Of a DNA stretch of 22,690 nt, positions 1,549-22,690 are shown piece by piece; position 1 is the stretch's first letter; each line of letters begins with the position of its first letter. Made by a program: the position numbers and the translations under genes. The notes under the pieces were generated by a model. It saw only the letters and a list, made by a program, of their open reading frames with translations, had not been told where the DNA came from and did not search any database. The DNA lies in the IMG/VR virus record IMGVR_UViG_3300006921_000173, positions 1 to 22,690 of that record; one strand, given 5' to 3'. The stretch is from a virus.

Positions 1549-2317
1549 AATAAAACTATTAGACAATAAGTACTACGACAAAGCAGAACTGCTTAAGCGT
1601 ATGGAAGATGACACCTTTTACTATGGAGAACTAAATACTCTTGCGCTTAGTAGTAGTAGCCTTAAACAGCTTCTATCAAGTCCTAAGACATATAAGTTTA
1701 GTTTAGAGTATGGGAGTGGCGAAAGCCAAGCTTTAAGGGATGGGTGGTTATTCCACACCGCCATATTAGAGCCAGAGGTATTTGCAGCACAAACCTTTAT
1801 AGATGTGCAAAGCAAGAACACAAAGAAGTTTAGAGATGCCAAAGCTGAAAACCCAAGAGTATTTACTGCAAAAGAGCGTAGTGATGCTGATAGGCTTGTA
1901 GATGCGTTTTACCGCAACGAACACGCAAAAGAATTAATTACTAAAGCAGAGTTTGAAGTACCAGCAATAGATAACGTATTAAGTTTTCCTTTTAGAGGTA
2001 AGGCAGATGTATTAGCTGACAATAGAATAGTAGATTTGAAAACTACTGCATCAAGCGTAAAAGACTTTAGCTACTCGGCACAAAAATATTCTTATGATGT
2101 ACAATGCTATCTGTATTGTAATTTGTTTAACAAAGATTTTAAGTCGTTTTATTTTTTAGTACTTGATAAAAAAAGCCTTGACATTGGTATTTTTAACTGC
2201 TCAGAAGAATTTTATTTTAGAGGCGAACAAAAAGTAGAAAAAGCATTAGACTTATATAACAAGTTTTTTATAGAAGGTGCAGATTTAGACAACTACTGCT
2301 TAACTGGGGAATTATGA
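1538..2317 (+). CDS. RecE/Cas4-like PD-(D/E)XK exonuclease
   Basis: This 259-aa protein carries the motif set of the RecB/RecE/Cas4 branch of PD-(D/E)XK nucleases: His73 in LFHTAILEPE, Asp157 in FRGKADVL, Asp166-x-Lys168 in IVDLKTT, and a QxxxY motif (Gln189-Tyr193) after a tyrosine-rich helix. It resembles the C-terminal nuclease domain of exonuclease VIII (DUF3799-type). These enzymes resect double-stranded DNA ends for phage recombination and replication and need divalent metal ions. The usual partner, a single-strand annealing protein, is not visible in the window. The stop overlaps the ATG of the ABC-GNAT gene as ATGA, so the two products are made together and may act in one process. Confidence 0.8.
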   Translation: MKSKIKLLDNKYYDKAELLKRMEDDTFYYGELNTLALSSSSLKQLLSSPKTYKFSLEYGSGESQALRDGWLFHTAILEPEVFAAQTFIDVQSKNTKKFRDAKAENPRVFTAKERSDADRLVDAFYRNEHAKELITKAEFEVPAIDNVLSFPFRGKADVLADNRIVDLKTTASSVKDFSYSAQKYSYDVQCYLYCNLFNKDFKSFYFLVLDKKSLDIGIFNCSEEFYFRGEQKVEKALDLYNKFFIEGADLDNYCLTGEL

Positions 2318-3492
2318 AAATAGAACTCAAACACGATATATTAAACGACAAATACACCGAGTACGTTTATGAAGCTTTTGACATACAAAACAAAGAACAA
2401 AGCAACGTAACAATAGATGCTAATTTAGAACATTTGCCAAAACAATGGCACATTGGTGTAGTTTATGGTGGTAGCGGAACAGGTAAAACAACTATATTAA
2501 AAAATTTCTTTAAAAAAGAAATGGATACATATAATTTTGATTACAAAAAATCTCTAATATCTAATTTTGATTGGTTAGAACCTAAAGATGCTACTTTTTT
2601 GCTGTCTGCTATGGGTTTAAGTAGTGTCCCAACTTGGTTAAGACCATTTCATACTTTGTCAAATGGAGAACAATATAGAGCCAGTTTAGCTTATATGGTT
2701 GGCAAAGCAGATGAAAATAATGTAATATTAATAGATGAATATACAAGCGTAGTAGATAGAGATGTAGCAAAAGCTATGAGCAACGCACTACAAAAATACA
2801 TAAGACGAACAAACAAAAAAATAGTATTAGCGTCTTGTCATTTTGATATAATGAATTGGTTGCAACCAGATTGGATTTATTCACCACAAAAAGGGCGTCT
2901 TGAGATAGCGTCAAATCGAAGGCAAAGACCAAGAATTGAATTACAGATATTTCGATGTAGATATGAAACTTGGAAGATATTCAAGCACCATCATTATCTA
3001 ACACAAGATTTAAACAAAGCTGCAAAATGTTTTGTAGTATTGTTTAATGATAAGCCTATTGGTTTTATGGCAATACTTCCAATGCCAAGCGGAACTATAA
3101 AAGATGCTTATAGAGTTAGTCGTTTAGTTGTGTTACCTGATTTTCAAGGTTTAGGAGTTGGTATTAAAATACTTAATTTGTTTGGTGCAATGTACAAAAA
3201 GAATAATAAAATACTTTATATTAAAACCTCTAATCCTTCATTATTTAAAGGTATGATAAGAAATAAAGAAAATTGGACTTTAATAAATGAAAGTAACAAT
3301 GTAGATAAAATAAAAAAATCAAATCTAAAAATAATACAACAAGGCAAAGACAATGGAATAAAACTCCTAAAAGAAAGTATAACTAAAAGTTATAAATACA
3401 CAGGAGAAAAACACAACGATAATATTAATATTTTAGTATTTAATGCTGATGCCTATAAAGAAGTTGCACAAAATCAAATATCAATGTTTTAA
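2314..3492 (+). CDS. ABC ATPase fused to GNAT acetyltransferase domain, 392 aa
   Basis: Residues about 1-200 form a compact ABC-type ATPase: Walker A GGSGTGKTT (52-60), signature LSNGEQ (115-120), Walker B VILIDE (137-142), D-loop SVVD (145-148) and switch His176. There is no membrane domain, so it is a soluble ATPase, and the Walker A to signature distance is short (about 57 residues). Residues about 210-325 look like a GNAT acyltransferase, with HHHYL (225-229) and the acetyl-CoA loop RLVVLPDFQGLGVG (270-283). A Lys-rich tail follows. ABC-acetyltransferase fusions are a known class (COG2401), first noted in archaea; their substrate is not settled. Position after a recombination exonuclease suggests action on DNA or RNA, but a protein substrate is equally possible. 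Confidence 0.8.
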   Translation: MKIELKHDILNDKYTEYVYEAFDIQNKEQSNVTIDANLEHLPKQWHIGVVYGGSGTGKTTILKNFFKKEMDTYNFDYKKSLISNFDWLEPKDATFLLSAMGLSSVPTWLRPFHTLSNGEQYRASLAYMVGKADENNVILIDEYTSVVDRDVAKAMSNALQKYIRRTNKKIVLASCHFDIMNWLQPDWIYSPQKGRLEIASNRRQRPRIELQIFRCRYETWKIFKHHHYLTQDLNKAAKCFVVLFNDKPIGFMAILPMPSGTIKDAYRVSRLVVLPDFQGLGVGIKILNLFGAMYKKNNKILYIKTSNPSLFKGMIRNKENWTLINESNNVDKIKKSNLKIIQQGKDNGIKLLKESITKSYKYTGEKHNDNINILVFNADAYKEVAQNQISMF

Positions 3493-4839: not shown

Positions 4840-5354
4840 ACTTAGACGAACTAATAAAAGAACTAAACACCCTTTACGGATTTGATATAACACAAAGAGT
4901 AAGACAAAGACAATACTCGTATGCAAGAAAGGTATATTGTAAACTTGCTAAAGAAGCTGGACACACATTACAATTATTAGGCAGTAAGGTAGGTATATCA
5001 CACGACTGTGTACTATATCACAATAGAACTTTTAATACAGTAACACACAGCGACAAAGTAATATTTAACAAAATAGTTAGACAGTTTAGGTTGAATGTTG
5101 AACTGTGCAAAATGCCAAGAAAGAAAAAGGTAGTTAAAAAAATACCTAAGCAAGTCAAAGCACAAGACCTTTTACTAATAGACGAAATAACAGAAGTACT
5201 AAAGAAATGGGAAACAGAAAACCTTATGCAGTTTATAAGTACAAGGCTGATGCCATACGATAAGCTAATAAAAGCTACTAAGCCACAGATACAACCACAA
5301 AAGATAAAAGGTGCTAAACTAAAAAGACAAGTTAAAAACCCAGTACTGTGCTAA
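4836..5354 (+). CDS. DnaA domain IV-like DNA-binding protein, 172 aa
   Basis: Residues about 22-70 resemble the DNA-binding domain IV of the initiator DnaA: a basic stretch (RVRQRQYSYARKVYCKLAK), then LQLLGSKVGISHDCVLYHNRT, comparable with the DnaA helix-turn-helix and its RDHTTVLHA signature. There is no AAA+ ATPase domain, so it cannot be a full initiator. The C-terminal 100 residues are Lys-rich with an amphipathic helix (LLLIDEITEVLKKWE, about 112-126). Phages use such stand-alone domains as regulators or in packaging. Its place just before the terminase genes suggests a late regulator or packaging accessory factor. It is followed by the conserved A/T motif at 5369-5380. Confidence 0.65.
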   Translation: MNLDELIKELNTLYGFDITQRVRQRQYSYARKVYCKLAKEAGHTLQLLGSKVGISHDCVLYHNRTFNTVTHSDKVIFNKIVRQFRLNVELCKMPRKKKVVKKIPKQVKAQDLLLIDEITEVLKKWETENLMQFISTRLMPYDKLIKATKPQIQPQKIKGAKLKRQVKNPVLC

Positions 5355-5368
5355 AAAAATAAAGTTAT

Positions 5369-5384
5369 GTTTATATATTATTGA
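5369..5384 (+). promoter_or_regulatory. Recurrent TTATATATTA motif, copy 1 (terminase)
   Basis: GTTTATATATTATTGA lies 21 bases before the ATG of the small terminase gene at 5405. The core TTATATATTA recurs upstream of four other gene groups (6890, 14345, 16175 and 18448). It could be a phage promoter element, since this copy leaves room for a leader. Confidence 0.5.
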
Positions 5385-5404
5385 ATAAACAATCTTTTTC
5401 AATT

Positions 5405-5674
5405 ATGGACAAAAGAATAAACAATGGTGGTGCAAGGCAAGGCGCTGGTAGAAAACCAAAAGCACAAGAGCAAAAACTAATAGAACGCTTAGACAATATA
5501 ATAGACAAAGACGAAGCAATAGAAACATTAGGTAAGTTAGTAGCTAAGGGCGATATGAGAGCCTTACAAACCTATTTAAGTTATCGTTATGGTAAGCCAA
5601 AGGAAAGTATGGACATCAATAGTTCTGAGGGCTTAAACATCAATTTTAGAGATTTAATAAAATTCGTTGATTAA
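5405..5674 (+). CDS. Putative terminase small subunit, 89 aa
   Basis: From the ATG at 5405 the protein is 89 residues long. An earlier TTG at 5381 overlaps the A/T motif and is not preferred. The N-terminus carries GGARQGAGRKPKAQEQ (residues 8-23), the basic AT-hook-like sequence typical of many phage small terminase or terminase-associated proteins, followed by helices and RYGKPKESMDI. It would recognise phage DNA and hand it to the large subunit. It is shorter than classic small terminases but typical of this GARQGAGRK group. It lies immediately before terL and overlaps its proposed start. Confidence 0.7.
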   Translation: MDKRINNGGARQGAGRKPKAQEQKLIERLDNIIDKDEAIETLGKLVAKGDMRALQTYLSYRYGKPKESMDINSSEGLNINFRDLIKFVD

Positions 5675-6875
5675 AGTTAAAAAGAAATATATGCCTATTA
5701 TTGAAAACGATAGTAGGTACTTTATAGTTAGTGGTGGGCGTGGTTCTGGAAAGTCATTTTCAGTAAACGCCCTTTTAGTTATGCTTACCTATGAAGCTGG
5801 GCACGTTATACTATTTACACGCTATACATTAACCTCAGCATACATCTCAATTATACCAGAGTTCTTAGATAAGTTAGAACAGTTTGGCTCAATAGAACAT
5901 TTCCACATTACTAAGGATGAGATAATAAACAAAAAGACTGGTAGCAAGATAATCTTTAGAGGTATCAAGACATCAAGTGGCGATCAGACAGCAAACCTTA
6001 AATCTCTCCAGGGTATTACAACTTGGGTAGTAGATGAAGCTGAGGAACTAACAGACGAACAAAAGTTTGACACCATAGACCTAAGTGTAAGGCAGCAAGG
6101 TAAAGCCAATAGAGTAATACTGATATTAAATCCCACAACCAAAGAACACTTTATATATAGACGCTTCTTTGAGGAACGAGGGGTACAAGAGGGAAGCAAT
6201 ACACAAAAGGAAAACACAACCTACATACACACCACTTACATAGACAACATAGACAACCTTTCTAAAAGCTACATAGACCAAATAGACCAGATGCGTAAGC
6301 GCAGACCAGAGAAATACAAACAACAAATGCTGGGTGCTTGGATGAGCAAAGCTGAGGGTGTTATATTTAGCAACTGGAGTATAGGCGAGTTCAGAAGAAC
6401 AAGCGTAAGTGTATGGGGTCAAGATTATGGCTTCGCAGCAGACCCAAGTACCTTAGTTGAGGTAAACATAAACACCAGCACAAAGACAATCTATTTAAAG
6501 GAATGTTTTTACTTGCCAAGACTAACCACATCACAAATAGCAGAACTAAACCTTAAACACGCTAACAGTGGTTTGATTGTAGGAGATAGCGCAGAGCCAA
6601 GACTACTAAGCGAAATAAAAGCCAAAGGGTGTAACGTAAAGCCAAGCATAAAAGGTCAAGGGAGTGTAACGTACGGAATAAGCCTACTACAAGACTATGA
6701 CTTGGTGGTAAGTCCAGACAGTACAAACCTCATCAAAGAGTTAAACAACTACCGCTGGTTAGAACGCAAAAGCAACACACCAATAGACAAGTACAACCAC
6801 TTAATAGATGCGATTAGATACGCAGTAGGCTACCAGTTGCAAAACCCAAATAGAGGTAAGTACATTGTTCACTAA
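5667..6875 (+). CDS. terL: Terminase large subunit
   Basis: The motor and nuclease that cuts and packages DNA into the prohead. Walker A is GGRGSGKS (23-30), Walker B WVVDEAEE (120-127), and the coupling motif is LILNPT (152-157). The C-terminal RNase H-like nuclease has acidic residues Asp253 (GQDYGF), Asp307 (GDSAEP) and Asp381 (HLIDAIRY). The 402-aa length and pattern fit the PBSX/Terminase_3 group. The start is uncertain: TTG at 5667 keeps the Lys-rich N-terminus MIKVKKKY common in relatives and overlaps the upstream gene by 8 bases, while the first ATG is at 5691. Numbering here uses the TTG. Confidence 0.95.
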   Translation: MIKVKKKYMPIIENDSRYFIVSGGRGSGKSFSVNALLVMLTYEAGHVILFTRYTLTSAYISIIPEFLDKLEQFGSIEHFHITKDEIINKKTGSKIIFRGIKTSSGDQTANLKSLQGITTWVVDEAEELTDEQKFDTIDLSVRQQGKANRVILILNPTTKEHFIYRRFFEERGVQEGSNTQKENTTYIHTTYIDNIDNLSKSYIDQIDQMRKRRPEKYKQQMLGAWMSKAEGVIFSNWSIGEFRRTSVSVWGQDYGFAADPSTLVEVNINTSTKTIYLKECFYLPRLTTSQIAELNLKHANSGLIVGDSAEPRLLSEIKAKGCNVKPSIKGQGSVTYGISLLQDYDLVVSPDSTNLIKELNNYRWLERKSNTPIDKYNHLIDAIRYAVGYQLQNPNRGKYIVH

Positions 6876-6889
6876 AATAATTTAAAATT

Positions 6890-6904
6890 GTTTATATATT
6901 AATA
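6890..6904 (+). promoter_or_regulatory. Recurrent TTATATATTAATA motif, copy 2 (tail chaperone)
   Basis: GTTTATATATTAATA lies 11 bases before the ATG at 6916, in a 40-base gap after terL. It is the same core as at 5369, 14345, 16175 and 18448. It may start the transcript for the tail gene block. Confidence 0.5.
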
Positions 6905-6915
6905 AGTAAAGTAAT

Positions 6916-7572
6916 ATGAAAGTTAATCTAAGAATACCAACAAGCCTTAACGAGATAACCTTAGGACAATACCAAGAGTTTGCTAAGTTAGACGGAACGC
7001 TTGAGGACACACACGATACAGCGATACAACTTAAGATTGTAGAGATATTCTGCAAAGTGCCAGAGATAGTAGTACGCAATATGAAAGCCACTGACATAGC
7101 TGAGGTATGCGAGATTATCAATACTATGTTTAACACTAACCACCAGCTAATAAATAAGTTTAGTTTAGGTGGTGTAGATTATGGCTTCATCCCAGAACTT
7201 GACGATATGACCTTTGGCGAGTATATGGACTTGGACACTTTCATAGGCGATAACGAAAATTTACACAGAGCGGTAAACGTACTGTTCAGACCAATAGAAC
7301 ACAAGCGAGGCACAAGGTACACCATAAAGGATTATGATGCAGACATAAGCGACAACGCTAAGGACTTTCCTTTAGATGTGGTATTAGGTGCTATTGTTTT
7401 TTTTTACAGTTTAGGCAAGGACTTATCGATGGTTATGCTGAACTCTTTGGACACGAAGAACGAGAAGGCTTTAGCACAGCATCTAATTTCACAGCCAAAT
7501 GGGGATGGTTCAATGCACTCTATGGAATCGCTCAAGGCGATATTACAAGATTTAAAAATATCACTGAACTAA
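6916..7572 (+). CDS. Tail assembly chaperone, 0-frame product, 218 aa
   Basis: Likely the short form of the tail assembly chaperone that keeps the tape measure soluble while tube subunits polymerise. Features are LGQYQEFAKLD near the N-terminus, helical middle segments (IVEIFCKVPE), GVDYGFIPELDDMTFGEYMDLD (about 86-107, a conserved-looking core), and the C-terminal GDGSMHSMESLKAILQDLK. It is the first gene of the tail block. The -1 frame is open from 7362 to 7658 and encodes a second protein-like segment with no start codon, so a longer fusion of about 247 aa is expected if ribosomes slip on the T9 run at 7397-7405. Assignment as chaperone is inferred from position and this two-frame arrangement. 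Confidence 0.7.
   Translation: MKVNLRIPTSLNEITLGQYQEFAKLDGTLEDTHDTAIQLKIVEIFCKVPEIVVRNMKATDIAEVCEIINTMFNTNHQLINKFSLGGVDYGFIPELDDMTFGEYMDLDTFIGDNENLHRAVNVLFRPIEHKRGTRYTIKDYDADISDNAKDFPLDVVLGAIVFFYSLGKDLSMVMLNSLDTKNEKALAQHLISQPNGDGSMHSMESLKAILQDLKISLN
7397..7405 (+). other. Candidate -1 slippery site (nine T)
   Basis: The chaperone frame reads GTT TTT TTT TAC here, so bases 7398-7404 form the heptamer T TTT TTT in the correct phase for simultaneous -1 slippage of two tRNAs. The -1 frame beyond is open to 7658. No strong downstream hairpin was identified by eye. Another slip site further downstream cannot be excluded. Confidence 0.5.
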
Positions 7573-7658
7573 ACGTACACCAATGCTTAACCTATTTAGA
7601 ATACACAAAAGAGAAAAACCAAATAGAAGCATCACAGATTAAAAACAAATTCAAATGA
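7404..7658 (+). CDS. Tail assembly chaperone -1 frame extension (about 84 codons)
   Basis: Read in the -1 frame, this segment runs from LQFRQGLIDGYAELFG through FTAKWGWFNALYGIAQGD to NQIEASQIKNKFK and stops with TGA at 7656-7658. The open frame extends back to 7362 but contains no ATG, GTG or TTG codon, so it should not start independently. It covers the otherwise empty 7573-7654 interval, and its TGA overlaps the next ATG (ATGA, 7655-7658), as usual for neighbours here. This matches the lambda gpG/gpGT logic, where a minor frameshifted chaperone binds the tape measure. Slippage at 7398-7404 would give a fusion of about 247 aa. The exact slip point is inference. Confidence 0.65.
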   Translation, partial: LQFRQGLIDGYAELFGHEEREGFSTASNFTAKWGWFNALYGIAQGDITRFKNITELNVHQCLTYLEYTKEKNQIEASQIKNKFK

Positions 7659-8125
7659 GCCAACAAGGAATAAGAGGGTTTTACCAAATAACAGAAACAA
7701 TAGAAACACAGCTTTTAGCGGATGTGAATGTAAACACAGTTACAACTGGCGATATCTTCGACATTGACTTATCTAAGCAAAGCATATTTCCTTTGGCGCA
7801 TATTATTGTAAACTCTGTTACACTACAAGAACAAGTAATATCTTTTAACATAACTGTTATGGCTATGGATATTGTGGATGAAAGCAAGGATGCTACTACT
7901 GACATCTTTAGAGGTAACAACAACGAGCAAGATGTACTTAACACACAATTAGCAGTTCTTAATAAATTAGTAATGGTGCTTAGACGTGGCGATTTATATA
8001 GCGATAAGTTTCAGCTTGAAGGCGACCCATCGCTTGAGCCATTTTACGAAAGGTTTGATAACAGACTTGCTGGGTATGCTGCAACAATGGACGTAATAAT
8101 ACACAACGATATCACTATATGTTAG
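7655..8125 (+). CDS. Putative tail terminator / neck protein, 156 aa
   Basis: A 156-aa, acidic, beta-rich protein beginning MSQQGIRGFYQITETIE. The C-terminal half has a run typical of phage neck or tail-completion proteins: DKFQLEGDPSLEPFYERFDN, then LAGYAATMDVIIHNDITIC. Its start overlaps the stop of the -1 frame chaperone segment, and its own stop overlaps the next ATG (ATGTTAG at 8119-8125). Size and position between the chaperone and the gp10-like protein favour a tail-terminator or connector role, but no diagnostic motif is present. Confidence 0.5.
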   Translation: MSQQGIRGFYQITETIETQLLADVNVNTVTTGDIFDIDLSKQSIFPLAHIIVNSVTLQEQVISFNITVMAMDIVDESKDATTDIFRGNNNEQDVLNTQLAVLNKLVMVLRRGDLYSDKFQLEGDPSLEPFYERFDNRLAGYAATMDVIIHNDITIC

Positions 8126-12467: not shown

Positions 12468-12607
12468 TGATAAAACAAATACTTGAACTTTTAAAACACG
12501 CAAACGGAGAAACAGAAAGAATCCGTATAGCACAAGGTAAACATAAACTACCTACAACACTAAAAGAGGGGTACAAAGCACTTAAACAAGAGATACAATG
12601 GCGATAG
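12467..12607 (+). CDS. Small hypothetical protein, 46 aa
   Basis: A 46-codon frame starting MIKQILELLKHANGETERIR and ending KEGYKALKQEIQWR fills the gap between two tail genes. Its ATG shares a base with the upstream TAA (TAATG, 12465-12469), and its last 10 bases overlap the tape measure start (ATG at 12598). It is helical and charged. Tight coupling at both ends makes it likely to be real. It has no recognised family. Confidence 0.55.
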   Translation: MIKQILELLKHANGETERIRIAQGKHKLPTTLKEGYKALKQEIQWR

Positions 12608-14322
12608 AAAAAACAATAAATATAGACGTAGAAAGTAAAGATGCCTTAGCTGGTATTAAATCTATTGATAGTGGTTTAACTGGTCTTGATAAAAGTGCTG
12701 CAACTGCTGGTAAAGGCGTTGGTGGAATATCAAAGGCTTTTAAAGGTCTTGGGGTAGCTATCAAGGCTGCTGGTATTGGTTTAGTTATTGGTGCTTTATC
12801 CAAGCTATCTGAGATATTTATGCAAAACCAAAAGGTTGCTGATGGGTTTAATACAGCTATGGAAGTTCTTAGTATTGCTTTTAATGACTTTGTAGGTTTT
12901 ATAATAAATAACACATCTGGAGTAGTAAAGTTTTTTAAGGCTATATTTGAAAACCCAAAACAATCACTTATTGATTTTGCAAATGCTTTTAAAAAAAACA
13001 TACAAGAGCGGTTTGAAAGTTATTTAGATACGCTTGGTTTTTTAGCAAGTGCTGTAAAAAAAGTATTTAGTGGAGATTTCGCTGGTGCTTTAGAAGATGT
13101 TAAAAGTGCTGGTAAAGAAAGTATAGACGTTTTAACTGGTGTAAACAACACTTTTGACAAAGCTACTGAGTTTGTAGGCGAAGCAACAGAGGCTGTAAAG
13201 AATTATGCGACAGAAACCTTTAAGGCTGCTTCTGAAAATGTAAAGTTAGCAAAGTCAGCAGAGTTAGCCGCTGTTATAAATCAAGGTTTAATTGAAAAAT
13301 ACGATAGACAAGCAGAGCAACTAAGACAGACAAGAGATGACGAAAGTAAGAGCATAGAGGAACGTATAAAAGCTAATGAAGAGTTAGCCAAGGTTTTAGA
13401 TGAGCAAGAGAAGGTAATGATGAAAAACGCTAATATTTTAGTGGCAGCAGCAGCAGCAGAACTTTCTAAAAATAAAGAAAACATAGAACTTCAAAAGGCA
13501 TATCAAGAAGCCTTAAACGAGCAAGCAGCTATTGAAGCACAAATAACTGGTTTTAGAAGTGAGCAACAAACTAACACCAACTCTTTATTAAAAGAGCAAA
13601 AAGAAATACAAAACGAACTTGCTTTAATTGGTAAAAGCGAAAGAGAAGTACAAAAAGAAGAACTTAAACAACAATATCAATTACAAAAAGAATTAATAGA
13701 CAGACAAGTAACAGACGAACAACAAAAGAACGAACTATTACTAACTGCTGAAAATGACTATCAAACTAAATTAAAAGAATTAAACGCTGATTTTGATGCA
13801 GAAGATTTAGCAAACACAGAAGCTAAAGCAGAAGCAGAGTTAAAGATTGAAAAGGAAGTTAAAGACGCAAAAATAGCCAATGCTGAGGCTGTTGGTGGTG
13901 CTATTGGCACTTTAGCTGGTATCGCTGGAGAGGGTACTGCTGCTGGTAAGGCTTTAGGGGTTGCTTCTGCAACTATTGACACTTATGTAGGTGCAAACAA
14001 AGCCATTGCGGCCTTTCCAGGCCCCGCTGGGATTGCTCAAGCTGTTGCCATAATTGCTACTGGACTAAAAAATGTTAAAACAATTTTAAGCACTAAAGTA
14101 CCTAAAACCAATGTTGGTGGTATTTCTGGCGGTGGCGGTGGTGGCGGCGGTGCGCAAGTACAAGCACCATCCTTTAATATAGTAGGCGCAAGTGATACAA
14201 ACCAATTAGCTGATGCGATAGGTGGACAGACACAACAACCAGTCCAAGCGTTCGTAGTAGCCAATGACGTAACAACAGCACAAAGCCTTGAAAATAACAT
14301 AGTCGAGGGCGCAACTTTATAA
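12598..14322 (+). CDS. Tape measure protein, 574 aa
   Basis: The protein that sets tail length and is threaded through the tube. It has a Gly/Ala-rich hydrophobic N-terminal part (GKGVGGISKAFKGLGVAIKAAGIGLVIGAL, spread over about 38-67), a long helical Lys/Glu/Gln-rich middle (about 210-440) with coiled-coil character, and a hydrophobic Gly/Ala segment near 440-510 with AFPGPAGIAQAVAIIA. A run of eight glycines follows, after GGIS (about 518-525). This hydrophobic-helical-hydrophobic plan is the classic tape measure layout. By the common rule of about 1.5 angstrom per residue it would give a tail of roughly 85 nm; that figure is an estimate. It follows the tail-tip gene directly, reversing the usual order of tape measure then tip. 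Confidence 0.85.
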   Translation: MAIEKTINIDVESKDALAGIKSIDSGLTGLDKSAATAGKGVGGISKAFKGLGVAIKAAGIGLVIGALSKLSEIFMQNQKVADGFNTAMEVLSIAFNDFVGFIINNTSGVVKFFKAIFENPKQSLIDFANAFKKNIQERFESYLDTLGFLASAVKKVFSGDFAGALEDVKSAGKESIDVLTGVNNTFDKATEFVGEATEAVKNYATETFKAASENVKLAKSAELAAVINQGLIEKYDRQAEQLRQTRDDESKSIEERIKANEELAKVLDEQEKVMMKNANILVAAAAAELSKNKENIELQKAYQEALNEQAAIEAQITGFRSEQQTNTNSLLKEQKEIQNELALIGKSEREVQKEELKQQYQLQKELIDRQVTDEQQKNELLLTAENDYQTKLKELNADFDAEDLANTEAKAEAELKIEKEVKDAKIANAEAVGGAIGTLAGIAGEGTAAGKALGVASATIDTYVGANKAIAAFPGPAGIAQAVAIIATGLKNVKTILSTKVPKTNVGGISGGGGGGGGAQVQAPSFNIVGASDTNQLADAIGGQTQQPVQAFVVANDVTTAQSLENNIVEGATL

Positions 14323-14344
14323 ATACAAAATAAATTAAAATCTA

Positions 14345-14359
14345 TTATATATTAATATG
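14345..14359 (+). promoter_or_regulatory. Recurrent TTATATATTAATATG motif, copy 3 (protease)
   Basis: TTATATATTAATATG runs straight into the ATG of the protease gene (14357-14359). The 15 bases are identical to those at 16175-16189. With so little room between the motif and the ATG, a promoter here would give a leaderless or internally started transcript, so a translation-initiation signal is also possible. Confidence 0.5.
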
Positions 14360-15583
14360 CGAATTGTAGAACTCATTTTAGACGAAGACCAAGAAATAGG
14401 GATAGAAGCTATTAGCGTAGTAGAAAACCCAGCAATCGAAGAAGATTTTATTGCCCTTAAATCACAAGAGTTTAAACTTGCAGAGGTAGACAAAGAGAAG
14501 CGCATTTTAATGGGTGCGTTACTTATACCAAACAAGCCTATATACAGACGCAACGGAGAAGATGAGTACTACATATATTTCTCAAAAGATACTGTCTTAA
14601 AAGCCTCGCAAATGTACTTAATGCAAGGCAAACAAAACAATTCAACCTTAGAACACCAATACGAATTAAACGGACTTAGTTTAGTAGAGAGTTGGCTTGT
14701 AGAAGATAAGGTACACGACAAATCTGTAAAGTATGGTATGGACTTGCCTTTAGGTACTTGGGTAGGTGCTGTAAAAGTAAACAATGACCAGATCTGGAAT
14801 GAGTTTGTAAAGACTGGTAAGGTTAAAGGTTTTAGCATAGAGGGCTACTTCGCTGACAAAATGGAAAGACCCAAAGACAAAACTTTAGGGGATTATATGA
14901 CAGACGAGCAAAAGCAAAACGAACTTGCTAAGATAGAAGAAGCCGAAGCAGAGTATTTACTAAGTCAAGTAAAGGCTATCATTAAAAACGATAAGCGTGT
15001 TAAGGGCGGTAAGAAGATGATTCTTGAAAGCTACACAGATTACCCAAGCGGAGTAAAGAACAACGCTAAAAGAGGCTTAGAATTAAACGAGAAGGTTAAT
15101 AACAAATGCGCTACACAAGTCGGTAAAGTTCGAGCGACACAATTAGCACAAGGTAAGCCAATCTCTAAGGAAACTATTAAACGTATGTATTCCTACTTGT
15201 CAAGAGCTGAGGAGTATTACGATGAAGGCGATACTAAGGCTTGTGGCACTATCTCTTATTTATTGTGGGGTGGTAAAGCTGGTAAGCGTTGGGCAGAGAG
15301 CAAACTAAAAGAACTTGGCGAAATTGAGTTGGCAAGTGAGGTTATCAATGATAGTATGGCTATTATAAATGACCGCTTGGCTTATGCCACTAAAGAACTT
15401 GCAATAAAGGCTGCACAAGATATCGGATGTGATAAATACCACACACACGAGTTTGAGGGTAAGACTTGGTTTATGCCCTGCGAACAACACAACCTTAAAG
15501 CACCTTGTACCGCTGGATATGAGCAGTACGGAATGAAAATGAAAAACGGAAAGTTAGTACCTAATTGTATTCCAATCAAATGA
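14357..15583 (+). CDS. Prohead protease (XkdF-like) fused to two C-terminal domains, 408 aa
   Basis: Residues 1-170 resemble XkdF/S78-like prohead proteases: IEAISVVENPAIEEDFIALK (16-35), His100 in STLEHQ, SWLVEDKVHDKS (112-123) and Ser160 in VKGFSIEGYF. His100 and Ser160 are the candidate catalytic residues. They would cut the scaffold and capsid N-termini during maturation. Residues about 225-322 form a second domain (YPSGVKNNAKRGLELNEK, then ISKETIKRMYSYLSRAEEYY and LLWGGKAGKRWAESKL), also found in phage proteins without an assigned function. Residues about 355-408 form a small Cys/His-bearing module (Cys358, Cys375, Cys384, Cys404) that may bind metal. Ends align with the coupled mini-gene at 15580 (ATGA). 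Confidence 0.75.
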   Translation: MRIVELILDEDQEIGIEAISVVENPAIEEDFIALKSQEFKLAEVDKEKRILMGALLIPNKPIYRRNGEDEYYIYFSKDTVLKASQMYLMQGKQNNSTLEHQYELNGLSLVESWLVEDKVHDKSVKYGMDLPLGTWVGAVKVNNDQIWNEFVKTGKVKGFSIEGYFADKMERPKDKTLGDYMTDEQKQNELAKIEEAEAEYLLSQVKAIIKNDKRVKGGKKMILESYTDYPSGVKNNAKRGLELNEKVNNKCATQVGKVRATQLAQGKPISKETIKRMYSYLSRAEEYYDEGDTKACGTISYLLWGGKAGKRWAESKLKELGEIELASEVINDSMAIINDRLAYATKELAIKAAQDIGCDKYHTHEFEGKTWFMPCEQHNLKAPCTAGYEQYGMKMKNGKLVPNCIPIK

Positions 15584-15745: not shown

Positions 15746-16150
15746 ATGAGTAATTACAAAAGAGTATTAAAACACTTAAACAAAGAAGAACTATCTACAC
15801 AAAAGGTACAACTTGCTTTAATTGATGATGTTAATAAAAAAGCAAATATTGTTGTTGAAGATTATAGAGCAATATCTAAATCTATTCAAGAAATTAACAA
15901 AAGAAAAAGAGAAGTACGTTCTATTGTTAGAGATTTAGAAACATTTTCTGATAAGTCAAAGTCTTTAATAAAAACTTCATTAAAAAACGCTACAGATTTA
16001 AGTAATCTTATAAATAAATTAGAAGCTGAAGCAAAAAAACTTGGAATTGATTACAATTATGATTTGTTAGCTATTGAACAAAAGGATATAAAAGATGAGG
16101 TAAACAAATTAGAAAAACTTATTCAAGAGATAAATGCAAAAGATTATTAA
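15746..16150 (+). CDS. A+T-rich coiled-coil hypothetical protein, 134 aa
   Basis: A 134-residue, almost entirely helical protein with heptad patterns (ALIDDVNKKANIVVEDYRAI, then ATDLSNLINKLEAEAKKLG). There is no signal or membrane segment. Its sequence is lower in G+C than its neighbours: 15841-15900 has 14 G/C in 60 bases, against 22 of 60 at 15061-15120 in the protease gene. A 19-base gap separates it from the mini-gene, and the next gene has its own A/T motif. It may be an insertion into the capsid block, or a scaffold-like helper. No family is recognised. Confidence 0.6.
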   Translation: MSNYKRVLKHLNKEELSTQKVQLALIDDVNKKANIVVEDYRAISKSIQEINKRKREVRSIVRDLETFSDKSKSLIKTSLKNATDLSNLINKLEAEAKKLGIDYNYDLLAIEQKDIKDEVNKLEKLIQEINAKDY

Positions 16151-16174
16151 AAATGCAAAATTAATTTTTAACAC

Positions 16175-16189
16175 TTATATATTAATATG
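16175..16189 (+). promoter_or_regulatory. Recurrent TTATATATTAATATG motif, copy 4 (scaffold/capsid)
   Basis: TTATATATTAATATG includes the start codon of the scaffold-like gene (ATG, 16187-16189) and is identical over 15 bases to the copy at 14345-14359. The capsid gene is next, so strong expression of this unit is expected. Confidence 0.5.
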
Positions 16190-16792
16190 AATACAAATGA
16201 TATGATATCAAAAATCAAAGAAGTTGTAGGCTTGTCCGAAGAGATTAAGCTTGAGCAACAAACTTTAGAGAACGGTGCTATCTTGGAAGCTGAAAGTTTT
16301 GAGGCTGGTAAAGAGATTTTTATTGTTTCTGAAGATGAGAAAATTGCCGTACCAGTTGGCGAATACCAAATGGAAGACGGACGTATTTTAGTAGTAGCAG
16401 AAGAAGGTCTTATTGGCGAGATTAAAGCTGAGGAAGAAGAAGTAGAAGAAGTAGAGGCTAAAGAAGAAGAAGAAGACAAAAAAGAAATGTACGCTACTAA
16501 AAGAGAACTTGCTGAGGTTAAAGAAATGATTGAAGAAATCAAAGCTATGTTAGAGCCTAAAGAGGACTTAAGTGCTGACGAACTTGGTAACCTTATGACT
16601 GAGGAACTTGCTAAACACGAGAAATTAGAGTTAAGCGAAGTACCAGAAGAAGTGCAAGAGGAACTAAACCAACCAGCTGCTGAGCCAATTAAGGCTAACC
16701 CAGAGGTACAAACAAAACAAAATTTCAAGTTTGCTACAAAAAGAAAACTAAGCACACTTGATAGAGTAATGAACAAAATAATTAACAACTAA
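16187..16792 (+). CDS. Acidic scaffold-like capsid assembly protein, 201 aa
   Basis: A very acidic 201-aa protein directly upstream of the major capsid gene. Residues about 25-80 form a small beta domain (LENGAILEAESFEAGKEIFI, then VPVGEYQMEDGRILVVAEEG) found in phage proteins near capsid genes. A Glu-rich stretch (about 82-97), helical segments and a basic C-terminus (KFATKRKLSTLDRVMNKI) follow, a layout like scaffold proteins with a capsid-binding basic tail. It probably guides capsid assembly and is removed by the protease at 14357. A long opposite-strand frame covers it but is explained by its Glu/Lys-rich codons. Role is inferred from composition and position. Confidence 0.65.
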   Translation: MNTNDMISKIKEVVGLSEEIKLEQQTLENGAILEAESFEAGKEIFIVSEDEKIAVPVGEYQMEDGRILVVAEEGLIGEIKAEEEEVEEVEAKEEEEDKKEMYATKRELAEVKEMIEEIKAMLEPKEDLSADELGNLMTEELAKHEKLELSEVPEEVQEELNQPAAEPIKANPEVQTKQNFKFATKRKLSTLDRVMNKIINN

Positions 16793-18427: not shown

Positions 18428-18447
18428 ATACAAAATAAAATAGTTTT

Positions 18448-18464
18448 GTTTATATATTAGTATG
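18448..18464 (+). promoter_or_regulatory. Recurrent TTATATATTA motif, copy 5 (portal group)
   Basis: GTTTATATATTAGTATG reaches into the ATG at 18462, directly after a terminator. A fresh start signal is needed here, which favours a promoter-like role for the motif in at least this place. Confidence 0.5.
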
Positions 18465-18812
18465 AAGATTATAGGAACTAATGGCGATAAAACTTTTAAG
18501 GTTATACCACGCCAATTTATTAGCGGTGCAATTACTGTAAACCTAACAAGTGAAAGTACTGGCACAACTATAAATAAAACTCCTACTGCTTCAACAGATG
18601 GCAACTATATGTCATTTGTAGCTGCTTTTGGTACATTGACTGAGGGCGATTTTTATGCGCTTGAGATAAAGAATGGTGCTGCTGTTATTTACAAAGATAA
18701 AGTCTTTTGCACAGATCAAACTATAAACCAAGCTAACAACGATTACTATTCTGTAAATGATGGCGAATACACCACAGAGAATAGCTTTGATAACGATTAT
18801 ATTATTTTATGA
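18462..18812 (+). CDS. Small beta-rich hypothetical protein, 116 aa
   Basis: A 116-aa Thr/Asn/Asp-rich protein starting MKIIGTNGDKTFKVIPRQ. Strand patterns alternate with turns (GAITVNLTSESTGTTI, then FYALEIKNGAAVIYKDKVF), like a single small beta-sandwich. The C-terminal 30 residues are polar and Asn/Asp-rich. It precedes the portal gene with an ATGA overlap (18809-18812). It is probably a virion protein, perhaps a capsid decoration or head-tail adaptor. No family is recognised. Confidence 0.5.
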   Translation: MKIIGTNGDKTFKVIPRQFISGAITVNLTSESTGTTINKTPTASTDGNYMSFVAAFGTLTEGDFYALEIKNGAAVIYKDKVFCTDQTINQANNDYYSVNDGEYTTENSFDNDYIIL

Positions 18813-20629
18813 ACGATTTAAGAATAGTTAATTTAAGCACCTACACAAGTCCAGAGATTGTAGAGAAGTCTAACAAACAATGGGTAGCCTATGGTAGTGA
18901 TAACAACTACTTTGGTTACTTAATAGACCGCTACAACGGAAGTCCTACAAACAACGCTATTATTAATGGTGTTAGTCAAATGATTTACGGAAAAGGCTTA
19001 GATGCTTTAGACAGCAATAGAAAGCCAGAGCAATACGCTAAAATGATTACTCTGTTTCATAAGGATTGTGTGCGCAAGTTGTGTTACGACCTTAAGCTAA
19101 TGGGTCAATGCGCTATTCAAGTTATTTACAGTAAGGATAGAAAAACAATAGCACAAGTAGAACACATCCCAGTAGAGAACTTAAGAGCTGAGAAGTGTAA
19201 CGAGAAAGGCGAAATAACTGGGTATTTTTATAGTGATGATTGGTCTAATGTAAAACCAAGAACAGAACTGAAACGCATACCAGCTTTTGGCTATTCCAAA
19301 GAAAGTATTGAGATTATATACGTTAAGCCTTACAGAGCAGGATATAAATACTATTCAAGTCCAGACTATCAAGGTGGTTTACAGTATGCAGAGTTAGAAG
19401 AAGAAATAAGCAACTATCACTTAAACAACATACTTAACGGATTAGCACCGTCAATGTTAATCAACTTTAACAATGGCACACCAAACGCAGAGGAACGCCA
19501 AAACTTAGAAAACCGCATCTACTCTAAATTTAGTGGCTCAAGCAACGCTGGTAAGTTTATACTTGCGTTTAATGATAACGCAGAGAGCCAAGCAACAATA
19601 GAGCCAATACAATTAAGTGATGCGCATAACCAATACCAGTTCTTAAGCGATGAGAGTGGCAAAAAGATTATGGTAGCGCACCGAGTTGTTTCTCCTATGC
19701 TTTTAGGAATTAAAGACAGTACTGGCTTGGGCAATAATGCAGACGAACTACAAACTGCTTCGGTCTTAATGGATAACACAGTTATTAGACCATTTCAGCA
19801 CCTTTTAATAGATGCCTTTGATAGCATATTAGCTTACAATAATATCTCTTTAAAACTATACTTTAAGACCTTACAACCGCTCGAGTTTACAGACCTTGAA
19901 AACGTAGAAGACGAAGAAACGAGAGAAGAAGAAACTGGCGTAAAATTAGCCAAAGATTTGCCAAAGGAATTAGGTAGCGACATAGCAGACGCCTTAATAG
20001 ACTTAGGGGAAGACGAATCAGACCTTTTAAGCGACTTTGACGTAATGGATGAGCGCGAAGTAAACTATGACGAAGAAGATGGCTTAGACGAGGTTATTAC
20101 GGACTTAAACAAACCAAAAGAAAAAAGTACACTTGCTAAAATATGGGAGTTTGTAAGTACTGGTAGCGCAAAGCCTTTTAGAGAAAGCGAACAAGATGGC
20201 GAAAGCAAACAAACCAAAGAAGAAGGTAATACTTTTTTAGTAAGGTATATGTACAGTCCGCAAAGATACAGCGCAAATTCAAGACCATTCTGCAAAAAAA
20301 TGGTAGATGCTAAAAAGGTTTACCGCAAAGAAGATATTATATCAATGGATACCAAAGTAGTTAATGCTGGTTTTGGTAAGGGTGGAAGCGACACATATAG
20401 TATATGGCTATACAAGGGCGGTGCAAGGTGTCAGCATAAATGGCTTAGAAAGACGTATGTGCGCAAGGATGGTGCTAAAGGCTTAGGCGATGCAATTACA
20501 ACGTCAGAAGCAAGGTCAAGAGGTTTTAAGCCAGAGGCAAACGCTCAGAAAGTACCAGTAGCACCAAAGGATATGAAGTATAAAGGTTATACCGCTGAAT
20601 ATTGGAACAAAATAGGATTTAAGAACTAA
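18809..20629 (+). CDS. Portal protein with extra C-terminal domain, 606 aa
   Basis: Residues about 1-360 form the portal: NNYFGYLIDRYNGSPTNNAI (32-51), DLKLMGQCAIQVIY (94-107), YRAGYKYYSSPDYQGGLQYA (175-194), HRVVSPMLLGIKDSTGLGNN (291-310) and the helix ELQTASVLMDNTVIRPFQHL (313-332), which is typical of portal stems. It is the dodecameric DNA channel. Residues 365-470 are an acidic linker. Residues about 474-550 form an extra domain, FLVRYMYSPQ, RPFCKKM (Cys495), SIWLYKGGARCQHKW (Cys541, His543), not needed in a standard portal; it may resemble a MuF-like minor head domain. The C-terminus ends YTAEYWNKIGFKN. The stop overlaps the next ATG by one base. Confidence 0.8.
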   Translation: MNDLRIVNLSTYTSPEIVEKSNKQWVAYGSDNNYFGYLIDRYNGSPTNNAIINGVSQMIYGKGLDALDSNRKPEQYAKMITLFHKDCVRKLCYDLKLMGQCAIQVIYSKDRKTIAQVEHIPVENLRAEKCNEKGEITGYFYSDDWSNVKPRTELKRIPAFGYSKESIEIIYVKPYRAGYKYYSSPDYQGGLQYAELEEEISNYHLNNILNGLAPSMLINFNNGTPNAEERQNLENRIYSKFSGSSNAGKFILAFNDNAESQATIEPIQLSDAHNQYQFLSDESGKKIMVAHRVVSPMLLGIKDSTGLGNNADELQTASVLMDNTVIRPFQHLLIDAFDSILAYNNISLKLYFKTLQPLEFTDLENVEDEETREEETGVKLAKDLPKELGSDIADALIDLGEDESDLLSDFDVMDEREVNYDEEDGLDEVITDLNKPKEKSTLAKIWEFVSTGSAKPFRESEQDGESKQTKEEGNTFLVRYMYSPQRYSANSRPFCKKMVDAKKVYRKEDIISMDTKVVNAGFGKGGSDTYSIWLYKGGARCQHKWLRKTYVRKDGAKGLGDAITTSEARSRGFKPEANAQKVPVAPKDMKYKGYTAEYWNKIGFKN

Positions 20630-21408: not shown

Positions 21409-22690
21409 ATGGCAAATAAAAAATTTAGTGAATTTACAGTAAAAACCTCGACTTCTGATGTAGATTTTGTTGTAGGTTATGACGGAACTGACAACGTCAG
21501 AATAACACCAGCCAATTTAACTGGCGGTGGTGGTGCATCAAGCTTAAACGGTCTTACAGATTGTTTAGTTGATACTGACTCTTTGTATGTAGGCGAATCC
21601 CCAAGCAGTTTAAGTGGTAACCCTCAAGGGAATACTGCACTTGGTATAGATGCTGCAAATGCTTTAACAAGTGGTACTAATAATACCTTTATGGGTAATG
21701 ATGCTGGATTAAGTGCAACAACCGCAAATGATAATGTAGCGATTGGATATCGAGCTGGTAAAGGCATAAATAATACATCTAAACAAAATAATGTTGCGAT
21801 AGGAAGCGGCACATTTGACATTTCAGCGGGTCAAAACTCTGTTGTCATTGGCTACCAAGCTGGTAGAGTAAGTTCATCAAGTTCAGCTGTTTACATTGGC
21901 TATCAATCTGGCTGGGGCAATAGTGGTGCAAGTAATACTGGAGTAGGTTATTTTGCCCTAAATGGCGGTGGCGGTTCACAATCTGTTGGAATTGGTTATG
22001 AAACTGGTAGAGTTAATTCTGCAACTGGTCATATTTCAATAGGTTACAAAGCTGGCTACTCACAAACTTCTGCAAATGATAACACATATATAGGATATGA
22101 AGCTGGTTATAGTGGTACAACTGCTACATATAGAACATTTTTAGGTTATCAAGCTGGAAAAGGAAATACTGGTACTCAAAACGTATTTATAGGTCAAAGG
22201 TGTGGAACTGGAACTGGTTCTGGTGCTGATAATGTAGCAGTTGGTTCAAACTCTTTAAAAGCTAATAGTGTTGGTTCAAATAATGCGGTTTTAGGATATA
22301 ATGTTATGCCAACTGCAACTGGCAGCAATAATACCGCAGTAGGTTATCAAGCTGGAAATTCTTTGACATCTGGTGATAAGAATACTTTAATGGGTTATCA
22401 AGCTGGCAAATCATTGACAACGCATCAACAAAATGTGTTTTTAGGAACTTCGGCTGGTTTTAATCAAGTTGCTTCATATAATAATATTATAGGCCACGAG
22501 GCTGGCTTTGGCAGCGGAAGTTCTAATTCGGGCGCCACAAATAATAACTTTATGGGATGGAGAGCTGGATACTCAATTACGTCTGGCACTTCTAATACAT
22601 TTATTGGAACACACGCTGGAAGAGCTATGCTAGATGGCGATAATAATATTGCGATAGGTCAAGGTTCACTTTATAATGACCAAGGCTCAG
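21409..22690 (+). CDS. Tail fibre with repeated IGYQAG motifs (5' part, runs off window)
   Basis: The frame from the ATG at 21409 is open through the end of the window (427 full codons). Residues 1-40 (MANKKFSEFTVKTSTSDVDF, then a Gly-rich GGGGAS) look like a virion-anchoring head. From about residue 75 the protein is a chain of 20-30 residue repeats of the pattern N-x-x-[IVFL]-G-[YNTQ]-[QEKRD]-[AST]-G, for example AIGYRAGKG, VIGYQAGRV, SIGYKAGYS, FLGYQAGKG and AVGYQAGNS. These resemble YadA/Hep_Hag-type head repeats that stack as beta-rolls in trimers. A fibre that touches host surface polysaccharide or protein is the best guess. The stop is not in the window. Confidence 0.8.
   Translation, partial: MANKKFSEFTVKTSTSDVDFVVGYDGTDNVRITPANLTGGGGASSLNGLTDCLVDTDSLYVGESPSSLSGNPQGNTALGIDAANALTSGTNNTFMGNDAGLSATTANDNVAIGYRAGKGINNTSKQNNVAIGSGTFDISAGQNSVVIGYQAGRVSSSSSAVYIGYQSGWGNSGASNTGVGYFALNGGGGSQSVGIGYETGRVNSATGHISIGYKAGYSQTSANDNTYIGYEAGYSGTTATYRTFLGYQAGKGNTGTQNVFIGQRCGTGTGSGADNVAVGSNSLKANSVGSNNAVLGYNVMPTATGSNNTAVGYQAGNSLTSGDKNTLMGYQAGKSLTTHQQNVFLGTSAGFNQVASYNNIIGHEAGFGSGSSNSGATNNNFMGWRAGYSITSGTSNTFIGTHAGRAMLDGDNNIAIGQGSLYNDQGS

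Follow-up and report, generated by a model that had tools for sequence, protein, structure and literature searches.

Open reading frames at a T run

How is a protein segment expressed when it is encoded in a reading frame that has no start codon of its own? The question is raised by a locus in a 22.7-kb virus record of IMG/VR (IMGVR_UViG_3300006921_000173), which at its full length of 22,690 nt is the window analyzed here. At this locus a 0-frame ORF overlaps a -1-frame stretch that is open without any ATG, GTG or TTG and closes as ATGA with the ORF that follows, and the overlap contains an uninterrupted run of nine Ts (T9) (Table 1). The 0-frame reads the run as GTT TTT TTT TAC, with a T_TTT_TTT heptamer in phase at 7398-7404. 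An earlier note, made from the letters of the window, had described this arrangement, and its coordinates, the missing start codons, the in-phase heptamer, the ATGA junction and the -1-frame peptides it quoted are all correct. The window includes late genes of a tailed phage (Table 1), and Rfam and tRNA scans of it gave no matches.

Table 1. Positions in the window of the two-frame gene, its parts and its neighbors
Feature	Position	Strand	Basis
Terminase large subunit (Terminase_3)	5667..6875	+	family match
Repeated upstream element TTTATATATTAATA, probable promoter of the studied gene	6874..6913	+	inference
0-frame ORF, 218-aa short product (ATG start)	6916..7572	+	substitution pattern, relatives
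Whole -1 open stretch, 98 aa and stop	7362..7658	+	no ATG, GTG or TTG
T9, proposed slip site	7397..7405	+	run kept among relatives
-1-frame C-terminal segment of the predicted 247-aa long product	7404..7658	+	84 residues and stop, no start codon
Dual-coded stretch, purifying selection in both frames	7406..7572	+	substitution pattern
+1-frame TAG stop, reached at once by U8/U11 transcripts	7412..7414	+	sequence
Next ORF, start overlapping the -1 stop as ATGA, function not assigned	7655..8125	+	ORF list
Tape-measure-like protein	12598..14322	+	match to the tape measure protein (MS-supported) of Cellulophaga phage phi46:1, E 6e-12
Head-maturation-protease-like protein	14357-15583		similarity
Portal	18809-20629		

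The explanation we favor, with a probability of about 0.7 for the reading as a whole, is that of a two-protein late gene with a polymerase slip site at T9 and products that would form a pair like gpG/gpGT of phage lambda. A single late gene would give two proteins sharing their N-terminal part: transcripts of the usual kind, with nine Us (U9), would be translated into the 218-aa protein; in a fraction of transcripts the RNA polymerase would slip on T9 and add one U; on this U10 mRNA the ribosome would read straight into the -1 frame and make the 247-aa protein with a different and longer C-terminal segment; slips to U8 or U11 would lead to an immediate stop. The two predicted products have 163 residues in common and the short one has 55 of its own. 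The pair would most likely act like the lambda chaperone, with an excess of the short form and an additional binding domain in the long form. The transcriptional nature of the slip, its direction and efficiency, the resulting protein ratio and the chaperone role are what we infer from the comparisons described below.

Conservation of the T run among relatives

Relatives were collected by protein-guided scans using degenerate back-translated peptides, so the search was blind to TTT codon use; with two annotated phage regions added, the collection comprises 398 loci, of which 300 are distinct. They belong to a large and almost unstudied family of Bacteroidota phages that is common in aquatic viromes. 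Both segments are encoded at all 398 loci. One distinct locus is truncated before the run and was left out of the run-length count; in each of the other 299 the run is either T9 (244) or T10 (55), and T7, T8 and T11 never occur. The second segment lies in the -1 frame in 298 of the complete distinct loci (T9 in 244, T10 in 54). A pattern test on the collected loci found T9 312 times, T10 54 times, and T8, T7 or a broken run not once. Because the loci are akin to each other these counts are not independent, and a set of 65 representatives less than 80% identical corrects for this in part. Conservation of T-rich runs at this place had been proposed in the earlier note as a check on its reading, and the check turns out in its favor.

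The run also persists at the margins of the family: two prophages found later (L519 and L520, the latter only 32% identical) have T9, as do the cultured Nonlabens phages (L082, L083), and prophages and Nonlabens phages retain the run at only about 30% identity. By codon phase the run occurs in the contexts [GAC]TT TTT TTT TAy/TGG and TTT TTT TTT TAC, with TTT TTT TTT CTG (L079), AGT TTT TTT TTT CGT (L274) and GGT TTT TTT TTG (L520) as divergent forms. In more than half of the distinct contexts the distance from the run to the 0-frame stop is 167 nt. The dual-coded overlap of about 55 codons is long for a phage recoding site.

Selection on both frames and the point of entry

The course of coding along the locus is seen in the changes per site at 0-frame codon positions 1/2/3, counted on a tree of 125 ungapped sequences. 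Upstream of the run the values are those of an ordinary 0-frame gene (5.2/3.0/18.2); between the run and the 0-frame stop the wobble positions of both frames are held down (2.6/5.5/6.3); past the 0-frame stop they are those of an ordinary -1-frame gene (1.9/12.5/3.7). The pattern changes at the T run and again at the 0-frame stop; contingency tests give p = 7e-53 and 2e-26, values that do not correct for relatedness. This succession of 0-frame, dual and -1-frame coding therefore places both products under selection, and the -1 segment, which had been called protein-like from the window's letters, has a coding pattern selected across the 125 sequences. The loci in this test were picked with T9 in one codon phase, which makes the nine invariant columns there a matter of the choice of the set; the invariance of the run rests on the count of 299 loci.

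Immediately 3' of the run the -1 frame encodes FFLxFR, residues that rank with the best conserved ones of the segment, and 17 distinct contexts have a -1 stop 2 nt upstream of the run. Hence, the point of entry into the -1 frame is the run itself, and the earlier idea that the slip could also occur further downstream has to be given up. The part of the -1 open stretch that lies 5' of the run is not thought to be translated, as some relatives have this stop 2 nt before it.

The products and their genomic neighborhood

The gene has no match in Pfam and matches only PHROG 32199, a family with no assigned function. An AlphaFold2 model of the fused form (sequence of the locus L040, 51-row alignment) has a pLDDT of 80.8 and a pTM of 0.75, and a Foldseek search with this model against BFVD returns 45 phage proteins with E values of 0.001 or less, and no function is stated for any of them; several are near full-length single chains of 258-267 aa with TM 0.70-0.79. 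The PDB gave no useful match by sequence or by fold (Foldseek, VIA-align).

The gene lies directly 3' of the gene for the terminase large subunit, and four genes separate it from the tape-measure-like gene. This does not correspond to gpG/gpGT, which have the major tail protein gene on one side and the tape measure gene, directly adjoining, on the other. The order terminase, studied gene, genes for proteins of about 140 and 160 aa, two structural genes and tape measure is identical in Cellulophaga phage phi46:1, and in Elizabethkingia phage TCUEAP1 it is only close to this. In both these cultured Bacteroidota phages the gene after the terminase is a single ORF (phi46:1 gp16, L528:8836-9366; TCUEAP1_3, L529:2164-2706). 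The phi46:1 gp16 is a positional equivalent and not a proven relative in sequence, because its hhalign match is weak (30%) and concerns another part only. Elsewhere in the window, positions 2314-3492 encode a 392-aa protein with a P-loop ATPase part (ATPase_2, E 2e-8) and a GNAT acetyltransferase part (E 8e-7), and 51-nt imperfect repeats at 21668-22417 encode a recurring GYQAG-type motif that may belong to a tail fibre.

The studied gene is preceded by a repeated element (Table 1), whose copies, ending in TTATATATTAATA(TG), are found at 5353-5392, 6874-6913, 14327-14366, 16146-16199 and 18432-18471. At three copies an ATG follows one base after the element, as if the mRNA were leaderless. The string TTTATATATTAA with one mismatch has 7 matches against 1.1 expected, and a similar TAAAA...ACGTTATATAnATATG is present upstream of the gene's counterpart in the majority of some 40 diverse relatives. 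The element is probably a phage promoter.

What the two products do is best approached through their architecture. Known chaperone pairs of this type combine overlapping ORFs with a programmed shift, and their long form consists of the N-terminus of the short form and an extra segment; the predicted products have the same layout. In chaperones of this type the short form is also in large excess, and the proteins stay out of the virion and bind both the tape measure and the tail tube protein. A tail assembly chaperone role modeled on lambda gpG/gpGT (PMC5009743) is our best guess, plausible but unproven, to which we incline by analogy. A somewhat less probable account keeps the two-product gene and makes it another assembly or connector factor needed in two forms: a position that immediately follows the terminase and precedes small neck-like genes speaks for such a factor, as does the failure to find chaperone homology, and it is opposed by the gpG/gpGT-like architecture, by the extension of the conserved module to the tape measure gene, and by phi46:1 gp16, which has no virion-MS note while gp19-gp21 have one, a weak fit to a non-virion chaperone. 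Chaperone proteins diverge fast. Of the earlier claim of a gpG/gpGT pattern with a tail chaperone, the pattern is retained and the chaperone identity is not carried by the Pfam, PDB and PHROG results or by the position beside the terminase.

Polymerase or ribosome

A slip at the run could be made by either of two machines. If by the ribosome, as the earlier note assumed, two tRNA-Phe would slip back by one base on U_UUU_UUU in the manner of lambda gpG/gpGT. The T_TTT_TTT heptamer is in the 0-frame phase in all 65 representatives and is, by its sequence, a valid ribosomal slip site too at every locus; U_UUU_UUY, that is both U_UUU_UUU and U_UUU_UUC, gives -1 shifts efficiently in E. coli (PMC4066793), and the known phage chaperone pairs have been ascribed to ribosomal shifts (PMC5009743). 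For such a slip seven Ts would suffice, yet 9-10 are always kept. The Ts beyond the heptamer on its 5' and 3' sides number (1,1) in 37 of the 65 representatives, (1,2) in 16, (2,1) in nine, and (2,0), (0,2) and (0,3) in one each. Together they always amount to 2 or more, and where a T has been lost at one side, in three cases, the other side has gained, these compensating end changes being limited to three lineages. The codon phase of the run drifts and its length stays at 9 or more. The flanking Ts are partly forced by the amino acids encoded (V/I/L/F before, Y/W/F/L after).

The ribosomal account also meets a silent change that is never used: T-to-C at 7404 would be synonymous in the 0 frame (TTT/TTC) as well as in the -1 frame (TTA/CTA), and the heptamer would then read U_UUU_UUC, yet it is not seen among the relatives, and in the remainder of the gene TTC accounts for 25% of Phe codons. 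Each of the 60 upstream wobble sites has undergone five changes or more. The stimulators that are usual, though not obligatory, for ribosomal frameshifting are likewise missing: no Shine-Dalgarno-like site was found near the run, and downstream folding has a z of -0.04 over 45 representatives in pseudoknot-free models.

Long runs are avoided in the rest of these genomes. In 191 kb of these phages' other genes, T runs of at least 9 occur 0 times against 5.4 expected from synonymous shuffles, T runs of at least 8 twice against 16.8, and A runs of at least 9 twice against 19.3, counts that cover phage genes only. A slip of the opposite sign (U8/U11) leads to a stop no more than 8 nt from the run in all 65 representatives, which may in part be a consequence of the dual coding of the TTTAGG stretch. 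According to Baranov et al. (2005), a 9A/9T run of conserved length among homologs with a conserved ORF layout is very likely a case of purposeful transcriptional slippage (PMC1088944). The T run of this family fits that description: it is uninterrupted, at least 9 nt long, conserved in length and placed in overlapping ORFs, and the depletion of runs in coding regions, here of phage genes, is a further mark of transcriptional slippage.

Several things favor the transcriptional reading: the run is strictly 9-10 Ts long and is never broken, its codon phase shifts, stimulators were not found, and such runs are depleted elsewhere. Slippage of the RNA polymerase from U9 to U10 appears more likely than a ribosomal slip, at odds of about 3:1, and we consider the latter unlikely. 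The programmed shift to a longer protein that the earlier note placed at the run is upheld in this, and its ribosomal nature gives way to a probably transcriptional one on the grounds of run length, phase and depletion.

The slip could also belong to replication, T9 and T10 genomes being mixed in the virus population so that some make the short and others the long form. The locus L040 agrees with this: its T10 (L040:2227-2236) puts both segments in one frame as a 247-aa fusion, with no other one-base coding indel relative to the window. Such a merging of the frames by a different run length, which the earlier note had named as evidence against a slip, is found here alone, at one of the 300 distinct loci; T8 and T11 are wholly absent and the -1 relation is retained in the T10 lineages, which makes replication slippage very improbable. 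The T10 of L040 is a single variant, natural or a sequencing error.

Hardly credible is a separate gene with its own start, or a split due to assembly error or pseudogene decay: the Nonlabens phages P12024S and P12024L do have an ATG within the -1 frame, and it is annotated as the start of a gene, of the kind the earlier note had also thought damaging, yet the window and 157 of 396 loci (about 40%) have no ATG, GTG or TTG in that frame and a separate gene is therefore not the general explanation, the -1 codons are conserved right up to the run, both frames are under selection across the 125 sequences, and the same layout recurs in independent assemblies and cultured isolates.

Implications and comparison with known systems

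Taken together, it is likely, as far as comparative sequence analysis goes, that in these Bacteroidota phages, a very widespread family, polymerase stutter at T9/T10 fixes the proportion of two assembly proteins, with about 55 codons read in two frames. If true, there are two molecular routes by which phages arrive at a gpG/gpGT-like short/long pair, and where a gene of a Bacteroidota phage contains a long T run, this may be an expression signal and not an error. The long product is missing from the annotations examined, in which the homologs are two separate hypothetical proteins. Moreover, hundreds of natural variants of one slip site help in telling polymerase from ribosome slippage by comparison. 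We know of no other phage assembly gene pair under programmed transcriptional slippage, within our limited knowledge of the field, and the open-access subset of the literature yielded no tail chaperone gene for which transcriptional slippage is reported.

Several relatives have no need of a frameshift. The BFVD models A0A516L611 and A0A6J5N0W0 align over nearly the full length of the fused model; a second Galbibacter element (L526) encodes a C-terminal domain akin to that of the family within one 209-aa ORF (hhalign 90%); and the Elizabethkingia TCUEAP1_3 has a weak C-terminal match (36%). Of four weak genome matches (L522-L525) none was convincing, and L522 and L523 yielded nothing supportive. 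Closer are the Nonlabens (Persicivirga) phages P12024S (genes 38/39) and P12024L (genes 40/41), which have a homologous pair after the terminase with CTT TTT TTT TAT (T9) in place and differ in being annotated as two separate hypothetical proteins, in a shorter 0-frame tail and in the internal ATG.

The lambda gpG/gpGT pair and its counterparts in tailed phages resemble the present gene in having two overlapping ORFs, the second in the -1 frame without its own start, which give short and long forms with a common N-terminus in the late structural region. In contrast to them, the present gene has a strictly kept T9/T10 and a dual-coded overlap of about 55 codons, follows the terminase instead of standing beside the tape measure gene, and has no match to them in sequence or fold. 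On the side of transcription, Shigella mxiE, Thermus dnaX, Citrobacter tssM1 and IS elements likewise have an A/T run of conserved length in an ORF overlap (PMC1088944): in mxiE an extra base joins the two ORFs (PMC1088944), and in Citrobacter tssM1 both forms and their ratio matter (PMC4256274). Compared with these sites, the present one, known from sequence, belongs to a phage late gene, and its T run has been retained by homologs that are far more numerous and more diverged.
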